Source: Actinomycetota bacterium (GTDB taxonomy: Bacteria; Actinomycetota; Actinomycetes; Mycobacteriales; JACQDL01). Taken from it: a stretch of 33,636 nt of DNA. The stretch spans positions 1-33,636 of the forward strand of contig JACQDL010000050.1 of the NCBI GenBank assembly GCA_016201065.1. The letters run 5' to 3'. A program made the position numbers and the translations under genes. The notes under the pieces are model-generated. The model saw only the letters and a program-made list of their open reading frames with translations. It did not search any database and was not told the DNA's origin. Shown piece by piece: positions 10,751 through 23,337 of this stretch; within the stretch, counting starts at the first letter, position 1, and each line of letters starts with the position of its first letter.

Positions 10751-11116
10751 TCAGCGGTCCTTTCCGTCTGACAGCAGACGCAGCACGGCCGTGACGTCCC
10801 GCAACCAGCCGTGCAACTCAGCGGTGGTCGGTGCCAGTTCGTAGCTGTGGTGGTGTGCTGCCCGGCACAACCCGGACCAGGCGATACGGGCCCGCACCGC
10901 GACCTCCTCGTCGGCGTAGAACGGTAGGGCGAGGAGCTGGTGCCGCATCGGGCTGCCGGCCAGGGTGGGTTCGGTGCGGTTCCAGTACCCTGCCAGGGTG
11001 TCCTCCAGGGCCGCCCGGGTCAGCACCACGCAGCCCCTTTGCCAGCAGCTCCGCATGCTCGGTGGCGGTCCAGCGAGCAACCTCGCGGTCAGTTCGAGCA
11101 ACTCGGGCGGGGTCAT
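10751..11116 (-). CDS. Small helical partner of the zinc-hook ATPase
   Basis: A 121-residue, probably all-helical protein. Its start overlaps the ATPase stop as ATGA (11113-11116), so the two are translationally coupled and probably work together. The segment ARIAWSGLCRAAHHHSYEL, ending in HGWLRDV, contains Arg followed by a run of His (R-x4-H). That spacing fits the R-x4-6-H motif of HEPN RNases, but the surrounding residues are not the classic RNxxxH, so the assignment is speculative. I recall similar small proteins next to ATPase genes in actinobacteria, with no established function. Confidence 0.7.
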   Translation of the reverse strand: MTPPELLELTARLLAGPPPSMRSCWQRGCVVLTRAALEDTLAGYWNRTEPTLAGSPMRHQLLALPFYADEEVAVRARIAWSGLCRAAHHHSYELAPTTAELHGWLRDVTAVLRLLSDGKDR

Positions 11117-13596
11117 GACCGCCGCAACCCGTCAACCAACCGCCGGGTGTAGTCGACCAGGCCACCCAGCGACGGGATGTTGCCGGTGCCGTGCACCCCC
11201 TTGTTGAGCACCGTCACCACCTGCGGCGAGGAGCGGTCGAGCCGCCGCAGCTTCTCGTCCGAGACATCGGTGCGCCCGTCGCCGCCGAGCGCCAGAGCAA
11301 GCAGCCGGCGGGTGCGGTGCTGCTCAGCGAGCATCCGTTCCGTTTCGGCAAGCGGCACGCCATTGGTCAGGTGACGGCGGCGGATCACCTCGTGGCAGGC
11401 GTATTCGATGGCGTCGCGGAGCAGCCCACAGACGATACGCACCCGTGCCGCCTGGGCCATGCCCTCATCCTGGGTGATCGCCCGGGCGTCGTCCAGGTAC
11501 CGCAGGGCAGGGTCGCCGTTCCCGTCCGATGCGACCATGACCCGCGACCCCGGCAAGCGGCTGATGGTGACGATCCGCGCCGGGATCTGGAGCAGCCGCG
11601 CCGCCATCGGCAGCCGGTCGTCATGGGTGAAGACGATGACCTGGCGGTCCCGGGCAACTACGGCCAGCGCTTGCGCGAGGCCGTGGACCTTCGCCGGGTC
11701 CATGGACTGCACCGGGTCGTCGATGACGAGGAACCGGAACGGGCTCTCCGGCATCGTGGCCCGGGGCAGGAACAGTGCCAACCCCAGCGAGTGCAGTTCT
11801 CCCTGACTCATCACCCCCAGGGCGGCACTGGGGACACCGTCAACGTTGACGTCGAGTTCGACATGACGCTGACTGCCGGTGCCGGCCAGCCGGACCCCTG
11901 CCAGGTCGACGTTGCTTTCCTGGCGGAGGGTGTTCCAGATCTCGGTCGCCTGCGCGACGACGGGAGCAAGACGATCGTTGCGGACCTGGTCGGCGACGAT
12001 TTTCAGCCAGGCGATCGCCTTCTGCAGCGCGGTGTACAGCCGGGCGGCCTGCCGGCTGTCGCGCTCCGTCTCGACCCAGCCCCGCAGCCGGTCGGCGATG
12101 GGCTGCCACCGTTGCTGGCGGCGTTCCAGCGCGTGTCGGGCCGCCACCTGGGCGGGGTGCAGGGCGGTGAGGAGCTCGTCGTACGCGGGCAGTGCCGCCG
12201 CGACGACCGTCACCCCATCGTCGGCACCGGCACCGGCACCGGGGCCGGCAGCAAGCAGGTCGTCCCACTGCCGCCACCGTGCCCGCAGCTCGCCGAGGTG
12301 CACCCTATCGGTGGTGAGGTCCAGATCGAGCAACCCCGGTGACACCGGGAGCCGCTCGCGAAGCGCGCGGCGGGCTGCGCGTTCGGCGCCGTGGGCCTCA
12401 TCCATCCGCGTCGCGCGTGTGGTCAGCCGTTCCAGTTCGGCGCGGGCCTGTCGCGCCCACTCCTCGTCGAGGGTGCGGCCACCGCAGACCGGGCACGGCT
12501 GGTTTGGGTGACCCTGCTGGTGCTGGAGCGCGTCACGCAGCAGGGCGGCGATCACCTTGGCTTCCTCGGCGGGGGTGCCGGCCAGATCGTCGATGTCCCG
12601 CAGGGCTGCGCGTAGCCGTTCCACATCGGCGGCGATGACGTCCCGCTCGGGGAGTTCAAGGACGTCGAGCTGCCGCAGCGGGGTGGCCGAACGATCACTG
12701 GCCCGGTCGTCGGCGGTGGCCAGCTCCACGAGCCGCTCCAGGTCGGCGGCCTTGCCGGCGAGCGCGTCCTCGGCCTGCCGGGCGCGGGGATCGGGGTGTG
12801 TGGCGAGCATGTCCCGAAGCGCCGGCAGATCTGCGGCCGCCATGGCGCGCTGATCGTTCATCTCCTTGCGTGCGTCCTTGAGCATCTTGTCGATCTTGAC
12901 CAGCTGATCCAGTCCGAGGATGCGGTGCAGGGAGTCGTGGATCTCGCTCGGTCTGCCATCCAGCAGCCCGCCGAGCTCGGCGTAGGACAGGAACGGGCGG
13001 TACAGCTCCATCGGGCGTTCCCAGCCGAGGTCGGCGACGGACCCCCGGGGTTCGCCGGTGACCTGGAGGAAACCGCTCCAGTCGGTGAGTTCGCCACCGG
13101 TCGTCCACCGGCATTCGATGGTGGCGGCTTGGCGTTGTCCGTCAACGCCAAGCCGGATCCGGATCGCTGGCGCCTCGTCGGTGTGCAGATTTCGCCAACT
13201 TTTCCACCAGACGTCGCTGCGTCCGGCCCACCGCTTGTTGTTCCCGGTGAGGGCGAACTCGGCGGCCTCGGCGAAGCTGGACTTCCCCGACCCGTTGCGG
13301 CCGGTGACGATCGTCAGTCCGGGTCCCGGGTGCAGGTCGAGTGTGGTGGTCGGTCCGATACCCCGGAAACCGGTCACCTCAATGCCGGCGAGATAGGTGC
13401 CCACCCGGGTCGGGGACTGTTCGTCAGCCGGCGGTGGCGCGGGTCTCGGCGGCACCTGCCCACCGAGCGTCGCGCGGAACTCGTCCTCACCGAGTACGGC
13501 GCCGAGGATCAGGTTGGTGGCGATCTCGGGGAGGGCGGCGTCATCGAGGCGCCCGAGGAGGATCTGGTCGACTGTCACTGGATCGGGGGATTCCAT
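11113..13596 (-). CDS. Rad50/RloC-like zinc-hook ABC ATPase
   Basis: An 827-residue ABC-type ATPase with these landmarks: Walker A GRNGSGKS (99-106), Cys-Pro-Val-Cys (368-371) between arginine- and glutamate-rich helices (a Rad50-style zinc hook), signature MSQGE (596-600), Walker B FLVIDDP (622-628), D-loop SMD (631-633) and H-loop His658. It resembles Rad50/SbcC with short coils. A ~170-residue tail follows the H-loop and contains R727-x3-E731 (LLRDAIEYACHE), His760 and His802. RloC and PrrC anticodon nucleases have an Arg-x3-Glu plus His triad after an ABC ATPase and are linked to type I restriction loci; this similarity is inferred. The ATG at 13594-13596 is preferred because GAGGG lies about 9 bases upstream; the frame is open to 13746. 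Confidence 0.85.
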   Translation of the reverse strand: MESPDPVTVDQILLGRLDDAALPEIATNLILGAVLGEDEFRATLGGQVPPRPAPPPADEQSPTRVGTYLAGIEVTGFRGIGPTTTLDLHPGPGLTIVTGRNGSGKSSFAEAAEFALTGNNKRWAGRSDVWWKSWRNLHTDEAPAIRIRLGVDGQRQAATIECRWTTGGELTDWSGFLQVTGEPRGSVADLGWERPMELYRPFLSYAELGGLLDGRPSEIHDSLHRILGLDQLVKIDKMLKDARKEMNDQRAMAAADLPALRDMLATHPDPRARQAEDALAGKAADLERLVELATADDRASDRSATPLRQLDVLELPERDVIAADVERLRAALRDIDDLAGTPAEEAKVIAALLRDALQHQQGHPNQPCPVCGGRTLDEEWARQARAELERLTTRATRMDEAHGAERAARRALRERLPVSPGLLDLDLTTDRVHLGELRARWRQWDDLLAAGPGAGAGADDGVTVVAAALPAYDELLTALHPAQVAARHALERRQQRWQPIADRLRGWVETERDSRQAARLYTALQKAIAWLKIVADQVRNDRLAPVVAQATEIWNTLRQESNVDLAGVRLAGTGSQRHVELDVNVDGVPSAALGVMSQGELHSLGLALFLPRATMPESPFRFLVIDDPVQSMDPAKVHGLAQALAVVARDRQVIVFTHDDRLPMAARLLQIPARIVTISRLPGSRVMVASDGNGDPALRYLDDARAITQDEGMAQAARVRIVCGLLRDAIEYACHEVIRRRHLTNGVPLAETERMLAEQHRTRRLLALALGGDGRTDVSDEKLRRLDRSSPQVVTVLNKGVHGTGNIPSLGGLVDYTRRLVDGLRRS

Positions 13597-13749
13597 TTGA
13601 TGTGTCCCTCGGCGGAAGTGGGGAAGTGGAAGCTGGCTGCGTTCCACGGCGCCGAGCGGCGATGCGGAGACGGGTGCCATGCACACGTCGTGGAAGTGCG
13701 GTGGATCGATGACAGCACCAGACCATCGACAACGCGAGTCGATCATGTT

Positions 13750-13785
13750 GTCTCTTGCTGATAACTAGGGTTATCGGCAAGAGAC
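13750..13785. promoter_or_regulatory. 16-bp inverted repeat in the island's divergent promoter
   Basis: The left arm GTCTCTTGCTGATAAC (13750-13765) and right arm GTTATCGGCAAGAGAC (13770-13785) pair at 15 of 16 positions around a 4-base centre. It lies between the divergent ATPase (start 13596) and methyltransferase-like gene (start 13860). Its position suggests an operator that controls both arms. It could be bound by the HTH at the N-terminus of the gene at 13860, which is inference. Confidence 0.8.
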
Positions 13786-13859
13786 TTGTTCTGCTTCCGC
13801 GCTGTCGTTACTGTCAGCACTCACTCGGTTCGGTGGAGACGACAGGCGGAGGTGAGTCA

Positions 13860-16109
13860 GTGCCGAGCGCGACCATGCTTCCCGGCTCACTCATCTCCAT
13901 GCCGGAGATCGCGGAGTTGGCGGCGGTGAAACGCCCGGTGGTCACCACCTGGCGCCGCCGCCACCCCGACTTCCCCACCCCGGCCGCCGGAGACACCGCA
14001 CGCCCCCTGTTCGACGCCCGCAAGGTCGTGGACTGGCTGGTCGGCACGGGTCGGGCCGAGCGCGACAGGATCGAGGCCGACCTGCGGCTGCACCTGCTCG
14101 CCTGCCTGACCGGCGACGCCGCGTCCGAGGTGGTGTCCGACCCGTCATCCGCCCAGCCGTCCGGACAGGTCTCTGGGCGGATGCTGTCGCCACGGCAACT
14201 CATCGGCGCGATCACCGCGTTGATCTGCCTGCGTCACCTCGACGACGAGCCGCTGCACGCCGAGCCGGAGCAGGCCGGACCCGAGCACGCCGGACCCGAC
14301 GCCGGCGGGCGGTGTCTGGCTGGTTTGCGCGACCGGGCCGCCCACCTCGATCCCGGCGACACGCTGCTGCGCGGCGAGATCGACGCGATCCCGGACGGGC
14401 TCGGCTGGCTGCCCACGGTCGTTGACGAGCTGATCGAGGCCGGGTGGGGCTGCCGGGGAGCCTACGAGCAACTCCTCGCCACCCGGCACCGGCTCGGTGT
14501 TCCCGACCTGTTCGTGGACACCGTCACCGCGCCGCTGGCCGGGCTCATCGCCGGGTTGGCGGGAGTCGGTGAGCACGCGGACCGGCACGGTGCGGTGCGG
14601 CTGGCCGTGCCCGACGCCAGTGGTGGTGACCTGGCGCTGGCGGCCCTGGCGCAGGTCGGCGACGAGCAGGTGGGTGAGGAGACGCTGGTCAGCGTCGTCG
14701 TCGCGAGTACGGACCGGTTCCTCGCCCGCCTGGTGGTGCGCCGGCTGCTGGTCCACGGCCTACCCCGATCCGGGGTCACGGTCACGGGCGGCGGGACCTC
14801 AGCCGTGGGCACCGCTGCCGGTGCCGATGTGGCGCTGCTGCACCTGCCATACCGGCCGGGTGAGGAGCGGGGCTCGACCAACCCACTCGACGAGGTGTGG
14901 GCCGCCGCCCAGGCGCTCGCCCCCGGCCAGACCGCGGTCGTCCTCGGGCCGGCGGAGCTGCTCGTCGGTGCGTTGCCGGCGCACCACCCCGCCTGGCCGG
15001 TCCGCCGTGACCTGCTCGAAAGCGGCCGGATGGAAGCGGTGATCCACCTGCCGGGTGGGCTGGTGCCGTTCCGCCCCGGATACCAGACCGCGGTGTGGGT
15101 GCTGCGGCACGAACCGCAATCACCGTGGCAGGGGCGGGTGCTGCTCGCCGACGTCGCCCACCTGCCGCTGACCGCCGCGCTCGCCGACACCCTGATCTGG
15201 GACGTCATCACCTGGCGGCGGGACGGGCACCACCCCCAGGACCACCTGCGGGCGCACGCGGCGCAGGTGGCGGTCGCCGCCCTGCTCCGCCCGCAGGTGC
15301 CGCTGACCACCCGCCGCCCCGTGGGGCCTCGGGACATCGCCGCCGACCCCCGGCCCGCCGTCGCCCGGGTCGCCGAACTGGAGGCGGAGCTCAACCAACT
15401 GGCCTCCACCGGAGGCGACCAGGCACCGCTGCGCAGCGGCCTCGCCACCCGCGACGACCCGACAGGGCGGGTGAGCCAGTCGGTCGGCACCCTGATCACC
15501 AACGGCCGGCTCATCGTGCGCAAAGGAAACCGGATCGACCCCGCGCACCTCGCACCGGACGGGCAGCACCCACTGCTCGGCGCACCGGAGCTGACCGGGG
15601 GGGTCCCGGTCGGGAGTCGCCGCATCGACCGGGCGGTGCTGGCCACGACGTACCCGAGGGTCGAGTTCACCGAACCTGGCGATGTGGTCGTCACCCTCAC
15701 CCCACGGCTCGGCGTCCACCTGGACCGGGATGGTTTCGCGGTGGTTGAGTTCCCCGCACGGGTGCTGCGGGTCCCGGCCGGCGCCACCGAACACCTGCGC
15801 CCCAGGGTGCTCACCGCCCTGCTGAGCAGCCTCGGCGGTGCGACGGGGCGGGCGAGCGGTGCCGTCCGCTCCTCGCACCGGCTGGAGGCGCTGCCGATCC
15901 CGGAGTTGCCAGCCGGGGAGGTGGCGCGGCTGGATGCACTGCTCGCGGAGATCGACGAACGCCGGGACGCGGTCCGCCGCCAGTTGGCGTTGCTCGACGA
16001 ACTCGACCGCATCGCCACCACCGGCCTCGCCGTTGGCAGGCTGACCATCACCCCCGACACCGCATCCACCACCGGACACCGACCCGCACCGCCGAGGAAA
16101 ACCCGATGA
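13860..16109 (+). CDS. Inactive N6-methyltransferase-like protein: HTH, dead MTase and HsdS-like tail
   Basis: A 749-residue protein. Residues ~13-62 are a winged/HTH domain (MPEIAELAAVKRPVVTTWRR, DFPTPAAGDTARPLF). I recall this type in front of actinobacterial N-6 DNA methylases. Residues ~220-420 follow the fold of such methylases (VIHLPGGLVPFRPGYQTAVW matches the post-motif-IV strand). The SAM-binding motif I is replaced by AVRLAVPDASGGDLALAA, and the catalytic NPPF/DPPF by LLHLPYRPG (326-334). Residues ~540-725 resemble half of an HsdS subunit, ending in LPIPELPAGEVARLDALL and a long helix. It is probably a non-catalytic DNA-binding protein. GTG 13860 has GGAGG seven bases upstream. The stop is close to the hsdM start. 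Confidence 0.75.
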   Translation: MPSATMLPGSLISMPEIAELAAVKRPVVTTWRRRHPDFPTPAAGDTARPLFDARKVVDWLVGTGRAERDRIEADLRLHLLACLTGDAASEVVSDPSSAQPSGQVSGRMLSPRQLIGAITALICLRHLDDEPLHAEPEQAGPEHAGPDAGGRCLAGLRDRAAHLDPGDTLLRGEIDAIPDGLGWLPTVVDELIEAGWGCRGAYEQLLATRHRLGVPDLFVDTVTAPLAGLIAGLAGVGEHADRHGAVRLAVPDASGGDLALAALAQVGDEQVGEETLVSVVVASTDRFLARLVVRRLLVHGLPRSGVTVTGGGTSAVGTAAGADVALLHLPYRPGEERGSTNPLDEVWAAAQALAPGQTAVVLGPAELLVGALPAHHPAWPVRRDLLESGRMEAVIHLPGGLVPFRPGYQTAVWVLRHEPQSPWQGRVLLADVAHLPLTAALADTLIWDVITWRRDGHHPQDHLRAHAAQVAVAALLRPQVPLTTRRPVGPRDIAADPRPAVARVAELEAELNQLASTGGDQAPLRSGLATRDDPTGRVSQSVGTLITNGRLIVRKGNRIDPAHLAPDGQHPLLGAPELTGGVPVGSRRIDRAVLATTYPRVEFTEPGDVVVTLTPRLGVHLDRDGFAVVEFPARVLRVPAGATEHLRPRVLTALLSSLGGATGRASGAVRSSHRLEALPIPELPAGEVARLDALLAEIDERRDAVRRQLALLDELDRIATTGLAVGRLTITPDTASTTGHRPAPPRKTR

Positions 16110-16117
16110 GGAGCACC

Positions 16118-17725
16118 ATGCCACCGAGGAAGAAGGGCACCGACCAGGCGAGCCTGCCCGGCATCGCCACCATGGCCGACCTGAAGGCCACCCTGTGGAA
16201 GGCCGCCGACAAACTGCGCGGCTCCATGGACGCATCGCAGTACAAGGACTTCGTGCTCGGTCTGGTGTTCCTCAAGTACGTCTCCGACGCCTTCGAGGAG
16301 CGGCGGGACGCGATCCGCCAGGAGGTGCTGGCCCAGGGCATCGACGAGTCCCGGATCGAGATGTTCCTCAACGACCGCGACGAATACACCGGAGAAGGCG
16401 TCTTCTGGGTGCCGGAGCAGTCCCGCTGGGAATACCTCGCCGCGCGCGCGAAGGGAGGCGAGATCGGCGTCCTGCTCGACGCGGCCATGGACGCGGTGAT
16501 GAAACAGAACACCGCGCTGCGCGCCGTCCTGCCACAAATATTCAACCGGAACAACGTCGACCAGCGCCGCCTCGGTGAACTGGTGGACCTCATCAGCGAC
16601 GCCCGGTTCACCGGCCACGACGACCGGCCGGCCCGTGACGTCCTCGGTGAGGTGTATGAGTACTTCCTGGAGAAGTTCGCCCGCGCCGAAGGCAAGCGCG
16701 GTGGCGAGTTCTACACCCCGGCCAGTGTCGTGAAGCTCCTGGTGGAGGTACTGGAACCGTACGCCGGCCGGGTTTACGACCCGTGCTGCGGCTCCGGCGG
16801 CATGTTCGTGCAGGCGGAGAAGTTCGTCGTCAACCACCGGGGGCGCCGCGACGACATCGCCGTCTACGGCCAGGAATCCAACGAACGGACCTGGCGGCTG
16901 GCGAAGATGAACCTCGCCATCCACGGCATCGGCGGCGACCTCGGGCCGAAATGGGAGGACACCTTCCACGCCGACCAGCACCCGGACCTGAAAGCAGATT
17001 TCGTCCTCGCCAATCCACCGTTCAACATGTCCGACTGGGCCCGCACCGCCAACGACCCACGCTGGCGCTACGGCACCCCACCGGCCGGCAACGCGAACTT
17101 CGCCTGGCTGCAACACATCGTCTCCAAGCTCGCCACGCGCGGCACCGCAGGTGTGGTCCTCGCCAACGGCTCGATGTCGTCCAAGCAGTCAGGTGAGGGT
17201 GAGATCCGCGCCGCGATGGTCGAGGCCGACCTGGTGGCATGCATGATCGCGCTACCACCACAGTTGTTCCGCACCACCCAGATCCCCGCATGCTTGTGGT
17301 TCTTCGCCGACGACAAGGGACCGCACGGCTCCCGCAAACTCACCGACCGACGCGGCGAGGTGCTGTTCATCGACACCCGCACCATGGGCACAATGATCGA
17401 CCGGACCGAACGAGAGTTGACCGCCGAGGATCTGGCGAAGATCGCCGGCACCTACCACGCCTGGCGCGGCACCGCCTCGGCAGGCGTGGAGCCGTATGCG
17501 GACATCCCCGGCTTCTGCCGCTCGGCCTCACTGGACGAGATCCGCCAGCACGAGCACGTGCTCACCCCCGGCCGGTACGTCGGCGCCGCCGAGATCGACA
17601 CCTCCAACGACGAACCGACCGCCGACAAGATCGCCCGCCTGACCAAGGAACTATACGAACACTTCGACGAATCTGCTCGTTTGGAGCGCGTCGTCCGCAC
17701 CCAACTGGAGCGCTTCGATGTCTGA
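16118..17725 (+). CDS. hsdM: Type I restriction-modification methyltransferase subunit HsdM
   Basis: A 535-residue N6-adenine methyltransferase subunit. The N-terminal helical HsdM domain (TLWKAADKLRGSMDASQYKD) spans ~20-150. The catalytic domain has FYTP (198-201), SAM-binding DPCCGSGGMF (221-230) and NPPF (299-302), all intact. It methylates adenine at the site chosen by HsdS and forms part of the restriction complex. The ATG at 16118 is preferred because GAGGAG lies just upstream. An ATG at 16106, overlapping the previous stop as ATGA, is the alternative. It overlaps hsdS by 8 bases. Confidence 0.95.
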   Translation: MPPRKKGTDQASLPGIATMADLKATLWKAADKLRGSMDASQYKDFVLGLVFLKYVSDAFEERRDAIRQEVLAQGIDESRIEMFLNDRDEYTGEGVFWVPEQSRWEYLAARAKGGEIGVLLDAAMDAVMKQNTALRAVLPQIFNRNNVDQRRLGELVDLISDARFTGHDDRPARDVLGEVYEYFLEKFARAEGKRGGEFYTPASVVKLLVEVLEPYAGRVYDPCCGSGGMFVQAEKFVVNHRGRRDDIAVYGQESNERTWRLAKMNLAIHGIGGDLGPKWEDTFHADQHPDLKADFVLANPPFNMSDWARTANDPRWRYGTPPAGNANFAWLQHIVSKLATRGTAGVVLANGSMSSKQSGEGEIRAAMVEADLVACMIALPPQLFRTTQIPACLWFFADDKGPHGSRKLTDRRGEVLFIDTRTMGTMIDRTERELTAEDLAKIAGTYHAWRGTASAGVEPYADIPGFCRSASLDEIRQHEHVLTPGRYVGAAEIDTSNDEPTADKIARLTKELYEHFDESARLERVVRTQLERFDV

Positions 17726-18938
17726 GTGGAAGACATATAGTGTCGCTGATATCGCGGCCCCCGGTAAGAATTCTCTTGCTACTGGACCGTTTGGTTCGGC
17801 AATAGGGTCGCGATTCTTCAGAGAGTCGGGAATTCCCGTGATCCGTGGCAGTAACCTTAGTGTAGAGGTTGGTTCTCGCCTGGTAGAAGATGACTTCGTA
17901 TTCGTCGAAGAATCAAAGGCGGCTGAATTTTCTCGGAGTATTGTTGCAAAAGGCGACCTCATTTTCACTTGCTGGGGAACGATTGGGCAAGTCGGCTTGG
18001 TCGACGACAATGCACACTACGAACGGTACCTCATTTCAAACAAACAGATGAAGCTTACCCCAAATCTCGACATCGCTGATCCTGTGTTCTGTTACTATCT
18101 CTTTACATCTCCAGTGTTCGTCGCGCAGGTAAATAATGTTTCGATCGGCAGCTCGGTCCCGGGATTCAATTTGTCGCAGCTCCGGAAACTGCCGATCTCA
18201 CTTCCGTCGTTGACGGAGCAGCGAGCAATTGTTGGACTCCTTGGGGCGCTGGACGACAAGATCGCGGTCAACGGTCGAATATCCATAACTGCCGAGAATT
18301 TGGCCCGTACGCTGGTCGGCGCAGTGTCTAAGACAAAGCGAGTCAGCTTGGCAGATCTGGTCGATCAAAGGCGAGGCCAAGTAGTACCAGATGTGTTGGA
18401 TGTTCCGGTCGTCGCCCACTACAGCCTGCCGGCATTCGACAGTTCCCACCTTCCTGAAATTGTGGATCCTGGGTTGGTTAAGAGCGGGAAGTTTCTAGTA
18501 TCTAACCCGTCCGTTCTTATTTCGAAGCTGAACCCGGCCACTCCGAGGGTGTGGAATGTACATCCGACACCTCTACTTCCCTCGATCGCGTCTACCGAGT
18601 TCTTGGTGCTAGAGCCGGCGCCAGGCTTCACGACTCACGAGATTTGGGCGGTCTGCGTACAGGAGGAGTTCTTGGTGGAACTGTCGAGCAAAGTCGCAGG
18701 TACATCGAATAGCCACCAGCGAGTACCCCCCGCGGATGTCCTTAGTGCCAAAGTCGTCGACCCGCGCACCATGGGTGGTGTTTGTCGCCATCAGATTTCC
18801 GTCCTATGCCAAGCTGCATCCCACGCACGGATTGAATCACGGGAATTGTCCCATTTGCGGGACACGCTGTTGCCGAAGTTGATGTCAGGGGAGATCCGGG
18901 TGCGGGACGCGGAGAAGGTCGTGGAGGAGGTGACGTGA
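17718..18938 (+). CDS. hsdS: Type I restriction specificity subunit HsdS
   Basis: A 406-residue specificity subunit. Target-recognition domain 1 covers ~1-160 (GPFGSAIGSRFF, GDLIFTCWGTIGQVG). The first conserved helix region is LPSLTEQRAIVGLLGALDDK (163-182). Domain 2 covers ~205-365, and the second conserved helix ends in LRDTLLPKLMSGEIRVRDAE. It reads the two halves of a bipartite DNA site for HsdM and HsdR. Its base composition is clearly less GC-rich than both neighbours, especially in the recognition domains (17740-18840). This is typical of recognition domains exchanged by recombination. The start overlaps the hsdM stop region. Confidence 0.93.
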   Translation: MSEWKTYSVADIAAPGKNSLATGPFGSAIGSRFFRESGIPVIRGSNLSVEVGSRLVEDDFVFVEESKAAEFSRSIVAKGDLIFTCWGTIGQVGLVDDNAHYERYLISNKQMKLTPNLDIADPVFCYYLFTSPVFVAQVNNVSIGSSVPGFNLSQLRKLPISLPSLTEQRAIVGLLGALDDKIAVNGRISITAENLARTLVGAVSKTKRVSLADLVDQRRGQVVPDVLDVPVVAHYSLPAFDSSHLPEIVDPGLVKSGKFLVSNPSVLISKLNPATPRVWNVHPTPLLPSIASTEFLVLEPAPGFTTHEIWAVCVQEEFLVELSSKVAGTSNSHQRVPPADVLSAKVVDPRTMGGVCRHQISVLCQAASHARIESRELSHLRDTLLPKLMSGEIRVRDAEKVVEEVT

Positions 18939-19111
18939 CCGTAGGGCGTGGCTGTGGTGCGCGGCGACGTGTTGGGGTTGCGGTACAAGGCGCGTGGCGT
19001 TGCGGCCGTCGGGGCGGCAACCGGCCGGGGCGGAGTTGATTAGTTCATTTAGCTGACGTCGTGGTGTATCAAGTTTGTGTGGTCGTTGTCGGGCTGAGTG
19101 GAGGTGAACCC

Positions 19112-20152
19112 GTGGTTGGTCGAGGGCGTCCGAGCCGGGCGAGCGTGTACGAGCGGCTGGACCGCGCGCTGACCGAGCTCAACGAGCGGCTCGGTGGCCT
19201 CCCGAGCCCGAAGAAGGCCCAGACGATCTGGGACGACATCTGGCATTTGGAGGCGCACCACTCCACCGCGCTGGAGGGCAACACCCTGGTCCTGCGTGAG
19301 GTGCAGACCCTGCTGGAGCAGGGCAAGGCGGTCGGGGCGAAGACGCTGCGGGAGTACAACGAGGTCCGTGGCTACGCAGACGCCGCCCGCTGGATCTACA
19401 GCCAGGCACTGGAGCCCGAAGGCTGGCACGACGGCCGGCTGCTGAGCATCACCGAGGTCCGTCGGGTCCACCATGCGGCGATGACGCCGGTATGGGATGT
19501 GGCGCCGCATGAGGACGCCACCGACCGGGAGACCCCCGGCAGCTTCCGGGAGCACGACATCCACCCGTTCGCAGCCGGCATGACCCCGCCGTCCTGGCCG
19601 CTGGTGCCGGCGCGCATCAAGCAGTGGGTGGCGGACGTGTGCGTGACCGGTGACGGGGTGCGGAAGGGGCAGCGACTCACCGATCCGTTGCCGGAGGAGC
19701 TGGCCCGGCTGCACAACCAGTTCGAGCAGATCCACCCGTTTCTCGACGGTAACGGCCGCACCGGGCGGTTGCTGCTCAACCTGATCTTGGTGCGGCTCGG
19801 CTACCCACCGGTGATCATCATGAAGCGGCAGCGGGCTGCGTATCTCACGGCGATGCAGCGGGCAGACGCGGGGGACTGCGGCGCGCTTGGTGAACTCATC
19901 GCGCGTGCCATGTACGACAACCTCAACCGGTTCATCGTGCCGAACGTCGCCGGCCCGGCCCGCCTGGTGCCCCTCGCGGCCCTCGTGGGAGCGGAGTTCA
20001 GTCTCGCGGCGCTGCGGCAGGCCGCGCAACGCGGACGGTTGGACGCCATCCAAGGGCCGGATGGGGTTTGGCGCAGCTCGCGCAAGGCCGTTGATGCCTA
20101 CCGGGAGACCAGGAACCAGCGGCGTGCGCGCGGCGGGGAGGGGAAGCCATGA
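19112..20152 (+). CDS. fic: Fic-domain protein (probable AMP-transferase), class II
   Basis: A 346-residue Fic protein. The catalytic motif HPFLDGNGRTGR (208-219) is intact. An inhibitory helix motif S-x3-E-G (STALEG, Ser51-Glu55-Gly56) lies N-terminal, so it is a self-inhibited class II Fic enzyme. A C-terminal winged-helix-like part (AALVGAEFSLAALRQAAQRG) follows. Fic proteins transfer AMP from ATP to protein hydroxyls; the target here is unknown. The GTG at 19112 has GGAGG (19100-19104) seven bases upstream, so the longer frame to 19061 is rejected. It lies between hsdS and hsdR and ends with an ATGA overlap with hsdR, so it belongs to the operon. A short AT-richer patch (19038-19058) upstream may hold a promoter. 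Confidence 0.92.
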   Translation: MVGRGRPSRASVYERLDRALTELNERLGGLPSPKKAQTIWDDIWHLEAHHSTALEGNTLVLREVQTLLEQGKAVGAKTLREYNEVRGYADAARWIYSQALEPEGWHDGRLLSITEVRRVHHAAMTPVWDVAPHEDATDRETPGSFREHDIHPFAAGMTPPSWPLVPARIKQWVADVCVTGDGVRKGQRLTDPLPEELARLHNQFEQIHPFLDGNGRTGRLLLNLILVRLGYPPVIIMKRQRAAYLTAMQRADAGDCGALGELIARAMYDNLNRFIVPNVAGPARLVPLAALVGAEFSLAALRQAAQRGRLDAIQGPDGVWRSSRKAVDAYRETRNQRRARGGEGKP

Positions 20153-23100
20153 GCATGGACATGTCCGAGGGGGACTGGGAAGCGCTCGCGATGGAGACGC
20201 TCGGTGAGTTGGCGTGGGAGCCGGTGGCGGGGACCGCGATCGCGCCGGGTTCCGGGGAGCGGGAGTCGTGGGCCGAGTTGATCCTCGCCGGCCGGTTGCG
20301 GGACGCCGTCGCCCGGATCAACCCGGCGCTGCCTGCCGCGTCCGTTGACGAGGCGGTCGGGGAGGTGCTCGCCGCCCGGTCGCGGGACGCGCTCGCCGAG
20401 AACCGCCGGCTGCACACCCTCCTCACCACCGGTATCCGGTCGGTGGTCTACACCGACGAGCACGGCGCCGAACACAACCCGACGATCCGCCTCGTCGACC
20501 TGCGGGACGTGACCGCCAACGACTACCTCGCCGCCAACCAGGTCACCGTCATCGACGGCGAACACAACCGCCGCTTCGACATCGTCTGCTACCTCAACGG
20601 GCTGCCGGTGGGGTTGATCGAGCTGAAGAAGGCCAGCAGCGAATACACCGACCTGCCCGGAGCCCACCGCCAGGTGCAGACCTACCTGGAGGAGTTCCCG
20701 CTGGCGTTCCGGGGTAACGCGGTGTGTGCGGTCACCGACGGGATCACCGCCCGCTACGGCACCGCGTTCACACCGTGGGAGCACTTCGCCCCGTGGAACG
20801 TTGACGAGACCGGCCAGCCGGTGCCACAGCCGGCGACCCGCGACGAGGACCTGGCGTTGAACCTGCTGCTGCACGGGGTGTTCGAGCAGCAGCGCCTGCT
20901 GGAGCTGCTGCGCGGCTACATCGCGTTCGCCGAACAACCCGGCGGGGCGGTGAAACGGATCGCCAAGGCGCACCAGTACTTCGCGGTGGACAAGGCGGTG
21001 CGCAAAACCGTCGAAGCGACCCGGCGGGACGGCAAAGCGGGAGTGGTCTGGCACACCCAGGGCTCCGGCAAATCGCTGGAGATGGAACTGTTCGCGCACC
21101 AGATCGCCACCCACCCCAGCCTCGGCAACCCGACAATCGTCGTCATCACCGACCGCACAGACCTCGACGACCAGCTCTTCACGTCCTTCGCCGCCAGCGA
21201 ACTTCTACCCGAGACCCCCACCCAGGCCACCACCCGGGACGCGCTGCGCGCCGAGCTGACCCACCGCCGCACCGGGGGGATCATTTTCACCACGTTGCAG
21301 AAGTTCGGCCGCACCGCGCAGGAACGAGAGGCCGGCCACCACCACCCGTTGCTGTCGGAACGGCGCAACATCATCGTCATCGTTGACGAGGCGCACCGCA
21401 GCCACTACGACAGCCTCGACGGCTACGCCCGGCACCTGCGTGACGCGCTTCCGCACGCCACCCGCATCGCGTTCACCGGCACCCCGATCTCCGAGGCCGA
21501 CCGCAACACCCGTCACGTCTTCGGCCCCGACATCGACGTCTACGACCTCACCCGGGCCGTCAACGACGGCGCGACCGTGCGGGTCTTCCACGAAAGCCGG
21601 CTCATCCCCGTCGAACTCCCCGAGGGCGTCGACCCGGACACCATCGACGACCGGGCCGAGGAAGCTACCGCCGGTCTGGACGACGCCGAACGGGACCGCA
21701 TCGAGCGCAGCGTCACCGTCATGAACGAGCTCTACGGCGCGCCCGCCCGGGTGGCCACCCTCGCCGACGACCTGGTGGAGCACTGGGAGTCCCGCTCGGC
21801 GCAGATGCGCAAGTACATCGACACCCCCGGCAAAGGGATGATCGTCTGCGCGACCCGGGACATCTGCGCCCGCCTGTATGAGGACATCGTCGCGCTCCGC
21901 CCCGGCTGGCACGACGACGCCGACGACAAGGGCCGGATCAAGGTCGTCTACACCGGTGGCCCCACCGACGAGACACACATCCGACGGCACGTGCGCCGCC
22001 CCTCACAGAACAAGGTGATCCAGAACCGCGCGAAAGACCCCACCGACGAACTGGAGCTGATCATCGTGCAGTCGATGCTGCTCACCGGCTTCGACTCCCC
22101 ACCACTGCACACCATGTACCTGGACAAGCCAATGCGGGGCGCCGCACTGATGCAGGCACTCGCCCGGGTCAACCGCACCTTCCATAACAAGCAGGACGGG
22201 CTGCTCGTCGGGTACGCCCCGATCACCCAGCACCTGCACGACGCCCTCGCCGAATACACCCCCTCCGACCGGGACACCCGACCCGTCGGGCGGGACACCG
22301 ACGAGGCGGTGCGGCAACTGCGTGACCTGCACCAGGTGCTCTGCGGCACGATCCTGCGCGGCGTTGACTGGCGGGCTATCCGCGCCGGCGGCACCAAGAG
22401 CAGCTTCCGCGACGCGGTCTACCGCACCATCGAGCACCTGCGCGACCCGCGACTGCCGGACAACCAGGTCACCACCCCCGATGAACCGACGCTCGCCGAA
22501 CGGTTCCGGCGGGCCAGCAAAACCATGGACCGGCTGTACGCGCTGTGCTCCACCAGCGGCGACATCAACGACCTGCGCGACGACATCGTCTTCTTCCAGG
22601 CGGTGCGGGTCTGGATGACCAAGTACGACGTGGAGGAGCGGCACAGCCGGGGCCTGCCGGTGCCGGCGGAGGTCACGCTCTACCTCCGGCAGCTCACCGC
22701 CGGGATGATCGAAACCGGTGGAGTCACCGACATCTACCAGGCCGCCGGGATCGACCGACCCGACCTGTCGCACCTGGATGAGGCGTACCTGGAGCGGCTG
22801 CGCGCCTCCAAAACCCCCAACCTCGCCATCGAGGCGCTGCGGCTGACCATCGAGCAGCAAATGCGCAAAGCCACCCGGCACAACATCGTCCGGCAGGAAA
22901 GCTTCGCCACCCGCCTCATCGAACTGATGCGCCGCTACACCAACCAGCACCTCACCTCCGCGGAGATCATCGCCGAGCTGGTGACCCTGGCGAAGGAAGT
23001 CGTCGCCGACGCCGACCGGGGGCAGCGGTTCACCCCACCGCTCACCACCGACGAGCTGGCATTCTACGACGCCGTCGCCCAGAACGAATCCGCCGTCTCA

Positions 23101-23337
23101 GAGATGGGGGAAGGCGTGCTGGCGGAGATCGCCCGGGCGTTGGTCGCGGGCATCCGCCGCTCGGTCACCGTCGACTGGATCTCCCGTGACGACGTGCGGG
23201 CACGGCTGCGCACCATCATCAAGCGGCTGCTCGCCGTGCACGGCTACCCGCCTGACGCCGCCCCGGAAGCCATCCGCCTCGTACTGCGCCAGATGGAAAC
23301 CTTCGCCGAGGAGTGGTCCCCCGATGCCCGCCCATGA
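20149..23337 (+). CDS. hsdR: Type I restriction endonuclease subunit HsdR
   Basis: A 1062-residue motor-nuclease. The N-terminal nuclease core FDIVCYLNGLPVGLIELKK gives Asp144 and Glu158-x-Lys160 of a PD-(D/E)xK site. The SF2 translocase has Walker A HTQGSGKS (302-309), VDEAH (412-416), FTGTP, and a late motif QALARVNRTFHNKQDG. A helical C-terminal region binds the methylase complex. All key motifs are intact, so with HsdM and HsdS it should form an active restriction enzyme that translocates DNA and cuts at a distance. Its start is coupled to fic by a 4-base overlap. Confidence 0.96.
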   Translation: MSMDMSEGDWEALAMETLGELAWEPVAGTAIAPGSGERESWAELILAGRLRDAVARINPALPAASVDEAVGEVLAARSRDALAENRRLHTLLTTGIRSVVYTDEHGAEHNPTIRLVDLRDVTANDYLAANQVTVIDGEHNRRFDIVCYLNGLPVGLIELKKASSEYTDLPGAHRQVQTYLEEFPLAFRGNAVCAVTDGITARYGTAFTPWEHFAPWNVDETGQPVPQPATRDEDLALNLLLHGVFEQQRLLELLRGYIAFAEQPGGAVKRIAKAHQYFAVDKAVRKTVEATRRDGKAGVVWHTQGSGKSLEMELFAHQIATHPSLGNPTIVVITDRTDLDDQLFTSFAASELLPETPTQATTRDALRAELTHRRTGGIIFTTLQKFGRTAQEREAGHHHPLLSERRNIIVIVDEAHRSHYDSLDGYARHLRDALPHATRIAFTGTPISEADRNTRHVFGPDIDVYDLTRAVNDGATVRVFHESRLIPVELPEGVDPDTIDDRAEEATAGLDDAERDRIERSVTVMNELYGAPARVATLADDLVEHWESRSAQMRKYIDTPGKGMIVCATRDICARLYEDIVALRPGWHDDADDKGRIKVVYTGGPTDETHIRRHVRRPSQNKVIQNRAKDPTDELELIIVQSMLLTGFDSPPLHTMYLDKPMRGAALMQALARVNRTFHNKQDGLLVGYAPITQHLHDALAEYTPSDRDTRPVGRDTDEAVRQLRDLHQVLCGTILRGVDWRAIRAGGTKSSFRDAVYRTIEHLRDPRLPDNQVTTPDEPTLAERFRRASKTMDRLYALCSTSGDINDLRDDIVFFQAVRVWMTKYDVEERHSRGLPVPAEVTLYLRQLTAGMIETGGVTDIYQAAGIDRPDLSHLDEAYLERLRASKTPNLAIEALRLTIEQQMRKATRHNIVRQESFATRLIELMRRYTNQHLTSAEIIAELVTLAKEVVADADRGQRFTPPLTTDELAFYDAVAQNESAVSEMGEGVLAEIARALVAGIRRSVTVDWISRDDVRARLRTIIKRLLAVHGYPPDAAPEAIRLVLRQMETFAEEWSPDARP

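Follow-up and report, generated by a model that had tools for sequence, protein, structure and literature searches.

A pseudo-N6-methyltransferase gene as the probable source of a dedicated regulator for an actinobacterial type I restriction-modification operon

Introduction

The 33,636-nucleotide stretch of actinomycetotal DNA analysed here (contig JACQDL010000050.1; hereafter the window) carries a type I restriction-modification operon whose first gene encodes a protein shaped like an N6-methyltransferase, in which neither the S-adenosylmethionine (SAM) motif nor the catalytic motif is present. What such a protein does in front of an intact hsdM is the question that this locus raises. A first-pass annotation of the DNA had offered two answers, a regulator that reads DNA or a decoy subunit with HsdM or HsdS as its binding partner. 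We call the gene and its product dMT.

13860-16109, + strand: pseudo-N6-methyltransferase gene (dMT); helix-turn-helix (HTH), pseudo-N6-methyltransferase and half-HsdS, 749 amino acids

Our analysis indicates that dMT very probably arose from a bifunctional enzyme with HTH, methyltransferase and half-HsdS parts and now serves its own type I operon as a dedicated transcription factor. We reach this reading because the gene is preceded by a dedicated palindrome, because the palindrome keeps a fixed spacing to the −10 box, and because it covaries with the HTH; at the level of sequence comparison the first of the two earlier answers is strongly supported. The support is comparative throughout and comes from the family, its linkage, selection, the operator, the −10 spacing and the covariation of HTH and operator.

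A dedicated palindrome at a fixed distance from the promoter

We searched 299 genomes of the host's order, 36 of which gave a dMT match, and ran a profile search on 395 genomes of the class; after an extra family-level sample had been added, 54 members were compared. The features found upstream of dMT in the window are as follows.

13759-13776, no strand assigned: palindromic putative operator TGATAACTAGGGTTATCG, with the core GATAAnnnnnnTTATC at 13760-13775
13786-13791, + strand: −35-like sequence TTGTTC, 17 nt before the −10 box
13809-13814, + strand: −10 box TACTGT, 33 nt after the palindrome core

Comparison of the upstream regions showed that the palindrome reads CTGATAACnnnnGTTATCAG in the relatives of the window. 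The core GATAAnnnnnnTTATC, with no more than two mismatches in ten positions, was found upstream of 38 of the 39 hsdM-linked members in the first set; in L041 and L043 it lies in front of the gene that precedes dMT in the operon. The 39th member, L055, carries the symmetric variant GTTTAn6TAAAC in the corresponding position. When 15 held-out members, unused in defining the motif, were examined, the palindrome was detected in 14, with the caveat that L130 matches with two mismatches and a chance probability of about 0.09 by shuffling. An equivalent check of solitary relatives found no such palindrome before them, and none was present in the 600 bp before 14 hsdM genes that have no dMT partner. 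The window palindrome is the sole full match in its own 3.65-Mb genome, and exact TGATAAn6TTATCA occurs 12 times in 29 whole genomes (about 165 Mb), 11 of them at a dMT promoter. The twelfth copy (G542:C1:3690203-3690220) lies just downstream of hsdR, in the same locus as a dMT.

The position of the palindrome relative to the promoter was equally constant. The sequence TAnnnT was present 31-35 nt after the core in 29 of 38 loci, compared with a mean of 1.5 and a maximum of 6 of 38 in 1,000 shuffles, and among the held-out loci it was present at 31-36 nt in 13 of 14; the distance from palindrome to −10 is thus fixed at 33 ± 2 nt. At the −35 position 11 of 44 promoters have TTG, where chance predicts 2.9, a weak enrichment that corrects a statement drawn from information content, namely that there is no −35 box at all. 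MerR-type regulators have their operator in a 19-20 bp spacer that separates the −35 from the −10, an arrangement not seen here, where the palindrome precedes the −35 region.

The HTH as the probable reader of the palindrome

The N-terminal domain of dMT was compared with known structures by using its AlphaFold model, for which pLDDT denotes the predicted local distance difference test.

13881-14069, + strand: MerR-like winged HTH, dMT residues 8-70; domain pLDDT 87
13929-13961, + strand: recognition helix KRPVVTTWRRR inside the HTH; matches of the domain include CvkR, BldC and RacA

The best structural matches were CvkR (E 4e-3, probability 0.99, Foldseek), CarH, BmrR, RacA and BldC (root-mean-square deviation, rmsd, 2.3), and Pfam MerR_1 and HTH_17 gave weak matches in some members of the family. 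By structural match a winged HTH of the MerR type is present in dMT; the first-pass annotation had proposed a winged/HTH domain for the N terminus.

In three loci both half-sites of the palindrome were changed together, to GTTAA in L112 and L114 and to GTTTA in L055. A scan of all dMT columns showed that residues 24, 26 and 27 distinguish these three loci most clearly from all others; these residues lie in the recognition helix region and read S/T, Q and A instead of R/Q/K, P and V. The recognition helix of L114 resembles that of L112 (88%, versus 73% with L045), whereas the target-recognition domain (TRD) and the dead domain of L114 are closer to those of L045, L111 and L113, all three with the ordinary site. 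When the HTH was left out of the tree, L114 grouped with L045 (98/94) and the three GT loci stayed apart. A further symmetric change, GATAG..CTATC, was seen in L042, whose helix reads QKDVVH. Because the operator variants track residues of the recognition helix, and not the TRD or the dead domain, the comparison argues strongly, though short of proof, that the HTH reads the palindrome.

Alternatively, the half-HsdS domains might read the palindrome, treating it as a symmetric two-part target of the type I kind. Targets of type I half-S homodimers have a symmetric bipartite geometry, and GATAA-N6-TTATC shares it; however, the variants follow residues 24, 26 and 27, and the TRD of L114 is nearer to loci that have the other operator, so that we regard this explanation as very improbable.

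Domains and motifs of the protein

The dMT frame is uninterrupted from a GTG start behind GGAGG at 13860 to its end at 16109 (a TTG at 13755 is a possible alternative start), and hsdM starts at 16106, giving a 4-nt overlap. The hsdM product has both DPCCGSGG and NPPF, and the earlier description of dMT as directly preceding an intact hsdM is therefore accurate.

14607-14633, + strand: former SAM motif I, now VPDASGGDL, dMT residues 250-258
14835-14861, + strand: former motif IV (NPPF), now LLHLPYRPG, dMT residues 326-334
15450-16049, + strand: half HsdS with one target-recognition domain and one conserved helix, from hhalign against an HsdS alignment

In an alignment anchored on the active relative L051, VPDASGGDL and LLHLPYRPG occupy the columns homologous to DPACGSGS and NPPY, and both SAM motif I (DPxxGxG) and catalytic motif IV ([DNS]PP[FYW]) are absent from the window protein. 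The annotated loss of both motifs holds for this protein; extended to the family, it holds for the catalytic motif, as only 6 of the 54 members still have PP[FY] and 48 lack it, and fails for the SAM motif, as DPxxGxG is kept in 19 of the 54. Decay of the SAM motif has been more gradual than catalytic loss.

Pfam N6_Mtase matched dMT at E 0.19, below threshold. The AlphaFold model (pLDDT 82) has an HsdM fold across residues 67-490, with matches to StySJI M (2okc, Z 25.7, residues 70-490), 3lkd (Z 25.5) and 3khk (Z 25.3); structure prediction thus bears out the N6-methylase outline, and in the model an N6-methyltransferase fold of the HsdM type is present. By hhalign, the C terminus corresponds to the first half of an HsdS subunit (probability 94.6%, E 6.8e-8), with a single copy of TRD and helix, in agreement with the suggestion that the protein ends like half a specificity subunit.

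Family, linkage and selection

Order-level matches that cover most of dMT adjoin an hsdM with 60-81% identity to that of the window, and full-length homologs lie, with few exceptions, directly before the hsdM of one clade. The known exceptions are G581 (L110), without hsdM or hsdR, and members cut by contig ends. In the 395 class genomes the hsdM-linked family scored above 345 bits, versus less than 175 bits for solitary HTH-methyltransferases, and in a sample of the phylum family matches were found in the host's class only. Membership in MADS was considered and rejected: the matches to PADLOC mad1/mad2 are weak and explained by general resemblance among HTH and methyltransferase domains.

Could dMT be a decaying pseudogene of an HTH-methyltransferase beside hsdM? 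The stepwise loss of motifs across the family would fit this, as would the remnant in L054. However, long open frames were found in all sampled members except L054 and the contig-end cases. The ratio of nonsynonymous to synonymous substitutions (dN/dS) in seven related member pairs was 0.22-0.33 for dMT overall and 0.15-0.47 for the dead domain, with no relaxation particular to that domain (about 0.25 there too), and the operator is conserved. Decay is scarcely credible as an explanation, and the family is, as judged from these ratios, under purifying selection.

A probable route from solitary enzyme to operon partner

When the dMT tree was rooted on solitary relatives, two hsdM-linked clades were resolved, one of four members that keep PPF and a sister clade without PP[FY]. 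The split survived removal of the HTH and both motif regions (support 100/97 and 100/99), and the same main groups appeared in the HsdM tree. The simplest reading of these trees is that an active solitary enzyme became linked to hsdM with PP[FY] kept, and that catalysis was then lost once. Since the active solitary relatives share the HTH, the domain is ancestral, and the annotation was mistaken in describing it as gained.

The host genome holds a second relative, solitary and partly degenerate (DPACRDAI, IPPP), at G000:C29:34517-34693 (L003). Palindromes of the form CTGTGnnCACAG were observed at −88 to −136 before the solitary HTH-methyltransferases L092/L121 and L094/L123. An operator common to solitary relatives was rejected, as these palindromes are scattered and not general. 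The ancestral solitary enzymes may have been autoregulators too.

Eight genomes of the mycobacterial group have hsdM-hsdS and neither hsdR nor dMT, yet are nested inside the dMT clade. We take these loci, from gene order and length, to lie in a thyX-dapA-rnj neighbourhood of a mycobacterial genus and, from gene order, to be orthologs of Mycobacterium tuberculosis hsdM. A 410-amino-acid gene before the mycobacterial hsdM was considered as a shortened dMT and rejected, as it had no match to the family profile; it is presumably a YcaQ-type protein. Orphan hsdM-hsdS loci nested in the regulated type I clade comprise L054, L058 and L066-L073, with hsdR and dMT missing or reduced to remnants: L054 has a dMT remnant, G051 has a C-terminal dMT fragment only and no hsdR, and in G206 hsdR is broken. 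M. tuberculosis HsdM is an active orphan methyltransferase that methylates with HsdS and has no restriction partner (PMC7591249), indicating that dMT is probably not needed for methylation in the mycobacterial branch. Because the mycobacteria without hsdR have lost dMT and this HsdM is active as an orphan, the dMT partner thus appears to go with restriction, not with methylation. The orphan mycobacterial HsdM is, we suggest, a descendant of a complete regulated restriction system minus its nuclease and regulator.

These losses also bear on the second of the earlier answers, in which dMT is a decoy or structural subunit that replaces one HsdM or half an HsdS in the complex while the HTH merely tethers it to DNA. 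An HsdM fold (Z about 25) with a half-HsdS tail would suit such a subunit, as would its constant place beside hsdM with the 4-nt overlap seen in the window, and its loss together with hsdR in mycobacteria fits a part needed for restriction. A decoy does not, however, predict the palindrome, the fixed −10 spacing or the HTH covariation, and M. tuberculosis HsdM methylates with HsdS as an orphan (PMC7591249); we consider it improbable.

Proposed role of dMT

As a regulator, two copies of dMT would bind the palindrome through the MerR-like HTH, presumably as a homodimer, with the centre of the site some 53 bp ahead of the transcription start; bound dMT would then set transcription of dMT-hsdM-hsdS-(fic)-hsdR. 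Activation, with positive feedback, is mildly favoured over repression because the predicted site is near −53, immediately ahead of a −35 that is weak or missing.

The dead methyltransferase and half-HsdS, the remaining 670 residues, could serve as a sensor and dimerisation module that, for example, binds HsdM or DNA, so that the activity of the regulator would follow the state of the complex. The conserved HsdS helix contacts HsdM in type I structures. We make the guess of dimerisation and HsdM/HsdS/DNA sensing because the half-HsdS keeps this HsdM-contact helix and the whole domain is under selection, and the tail makes HsdM/HsdS binding a possible route of partner sensing. We put forward only tentatively that the dead module reports the state of assembly or methylation to the HTH, so that the operon would gauge its own modification capacity before expression.

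A related alternative keeps the same operator binding and has the half-HsdS read methylation of HsdM-HsdS sites, expression then following modification of the chromosome. The TRD is kept under selection, and an HTH-fused EcoRII methyltransferase represses only with methylated sites, even when catalytically dead (PMC12707154). On the other hand, HsdS is swapped freely (21-49% identity to that of the window in A4) while dMT follows HsdM, which counts against the proposal because a reader of the HsdS target would need to change alongside; we think it rather unlikely.

Several observations weigh against dMT as the regulator that binds this site. L141, in the DPPF clade, had no site in the 300 bp examined, and L110 (G581) has a full-length member and the palindrome in a genome without detectable hsdM or hsdR. 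The GT variants are confined to three loci, which amounts to two or three independent changes. A normal GATAA site goes with Q at position 26 in L113 and with E in L131, and therefore no single residue decides specificity. Degeneration of the −35 region is weak rather than complete, which makes the sign of regulation less certain. Finally, another host factor could bind the palindrome, an explanation that we disfavour because the palindrome is absent elsewhere in the genomes and because of the HTH covariation.

The operon and its neighbours

The gene order in the window is dMT-hsdM-hsdS-fic-hsdR, with a divergent gene on the other side of the operator.

11113-13746, − strand: SMC/LmuB-like ATPase, divergent; shares the intergenic region with the operator
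16106-17725, + strand: hsdM; Pfam N6_Mtase 8e-105; intact DPCCGSGG and NPPF
17718-18938, + strand: hsdS; Pfam Methylase_S 2e-13
20149-23337, + strand: hsdR; Pfam HSDR_N and T1RH-like_C; NCBIfam hsdR

The Fic protein encoded between hsdS and hsdR (19061-20152, + strand) has HPFLDGNGR and the inhibitory motif TALEGN; other genes hold this position in L044, L048 and L050. A 121-amino-acid open reading frame (ORF) is also upstream and divergent, the ATPase and this small ORF spanning 10751-13746 on the − strand. The SMC/LmuB-like ATPase is the immediate divergent neighbour of dMT in L108, L111, L113 and L115 as well, and the small partner ORF lies beside it in the window and in L113; together they are possibly a second defence module. 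Control of the ATPase from the same palindrome was rejected, as no consistent −10 was found on the other strand. Between the palindrome and the upstream neighbour, an inverted repeat, GTCCGGGC...GCCCGGAC, is conserved in L107, L108, L111, L113 and L115, and is preceded on the reverse strand by GTGATCTCCGTC; a search of Rfam gave no match for the hairpin in L108, L113 and L115.

Comparison with known systems

Little is known of the transcription of type I systems (reviewed in PMC12707154), and in a search of papers available without subscription we found no account of the dMT family or of an inactive-methyltransferase regulator of type I systems. The closest parallels in function are M.SsoII, M.Ecl18kI and M.EcoRII, in which an N-terminal HTH is fused to a DNA methyltransferase (PMC6100179; PMC12707154). 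Two molecules of M.SsoII bind a 15-bp palindrome (PMC6100179); for this kind of enzyme, as predicted for dMT, the palindrome lies in the system's own regulatory region and the restriction-modification system regulated is its own. Those proteins belong to type II systems and are catalytically active cytosine-5 methyltransferases, whereas dMT has an adenine-type fold without motif IV, a MerR-like HTH, a half HsdS and a place in a type I operon.

RptR, the gammaproteobacterial type I repressor (PMC12255303), offers another parallel: as predicted for dMT, it is a dedicated transcription factor whose gene stands in front of hsdM and whose operator is conserved. It is, however, a small repressor without a methyltransferase part that uses direct repeats of a 6-bp palindrome (TAGCTA), in contrast to the 749 amino acids of dMT and its putative operator GATAAn6TTATC. 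The C (controller) proteins of type II systems resemble dMT in being encoded by the first gene of the operon with an operator upstream of their own promoter, and a member of the C family precedes the hsd genes of Mycoplasma gallisepticum (review PMC12707154); unlike dMT, they are small HTH proteins whose fold is unrelated to HsdM.

In architecture dMT matches the solitary HTH-N6-methyltransferases of PADLOC PDLC03037 MTase_I (L051, L123), its sisters in the tree, but most of these keep DPxCG.. and PP[FY], have no GATAA palindrome and, in the loci viewed, lie outside hsdM-hsdS-hsdR operons of this clade. The intact type I methyltransferase of Vibrio vulnificus YJ016 (7eew) shares the HsdM fold, and in the structural alignment its chain A extends over the C-terminal region of dMT as well (model residues 78-735 at rmsd 26, hence to be read domain by domain); unlike dMT, it was crystallised with a SAM-type ligand and Ocr, and it has no match to the HTH.

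As judged from feature tests on sequence, dMT belongs to none of the M.SsoII kind, the C proteins and RptR, and is predicted to work like them. What is new here is a dedicated palindrome at a fixed promoter distance that covaries with the predicted recognition helix of dMT. The family would represent a dedicated, widespread actinobacterial regulator with a defined operator, for which the route from active enzyme to transcription factor can be traced, and dMT is best described as a regulatory methyltransferase that belongs to a type I system and has lost its enzyme function.
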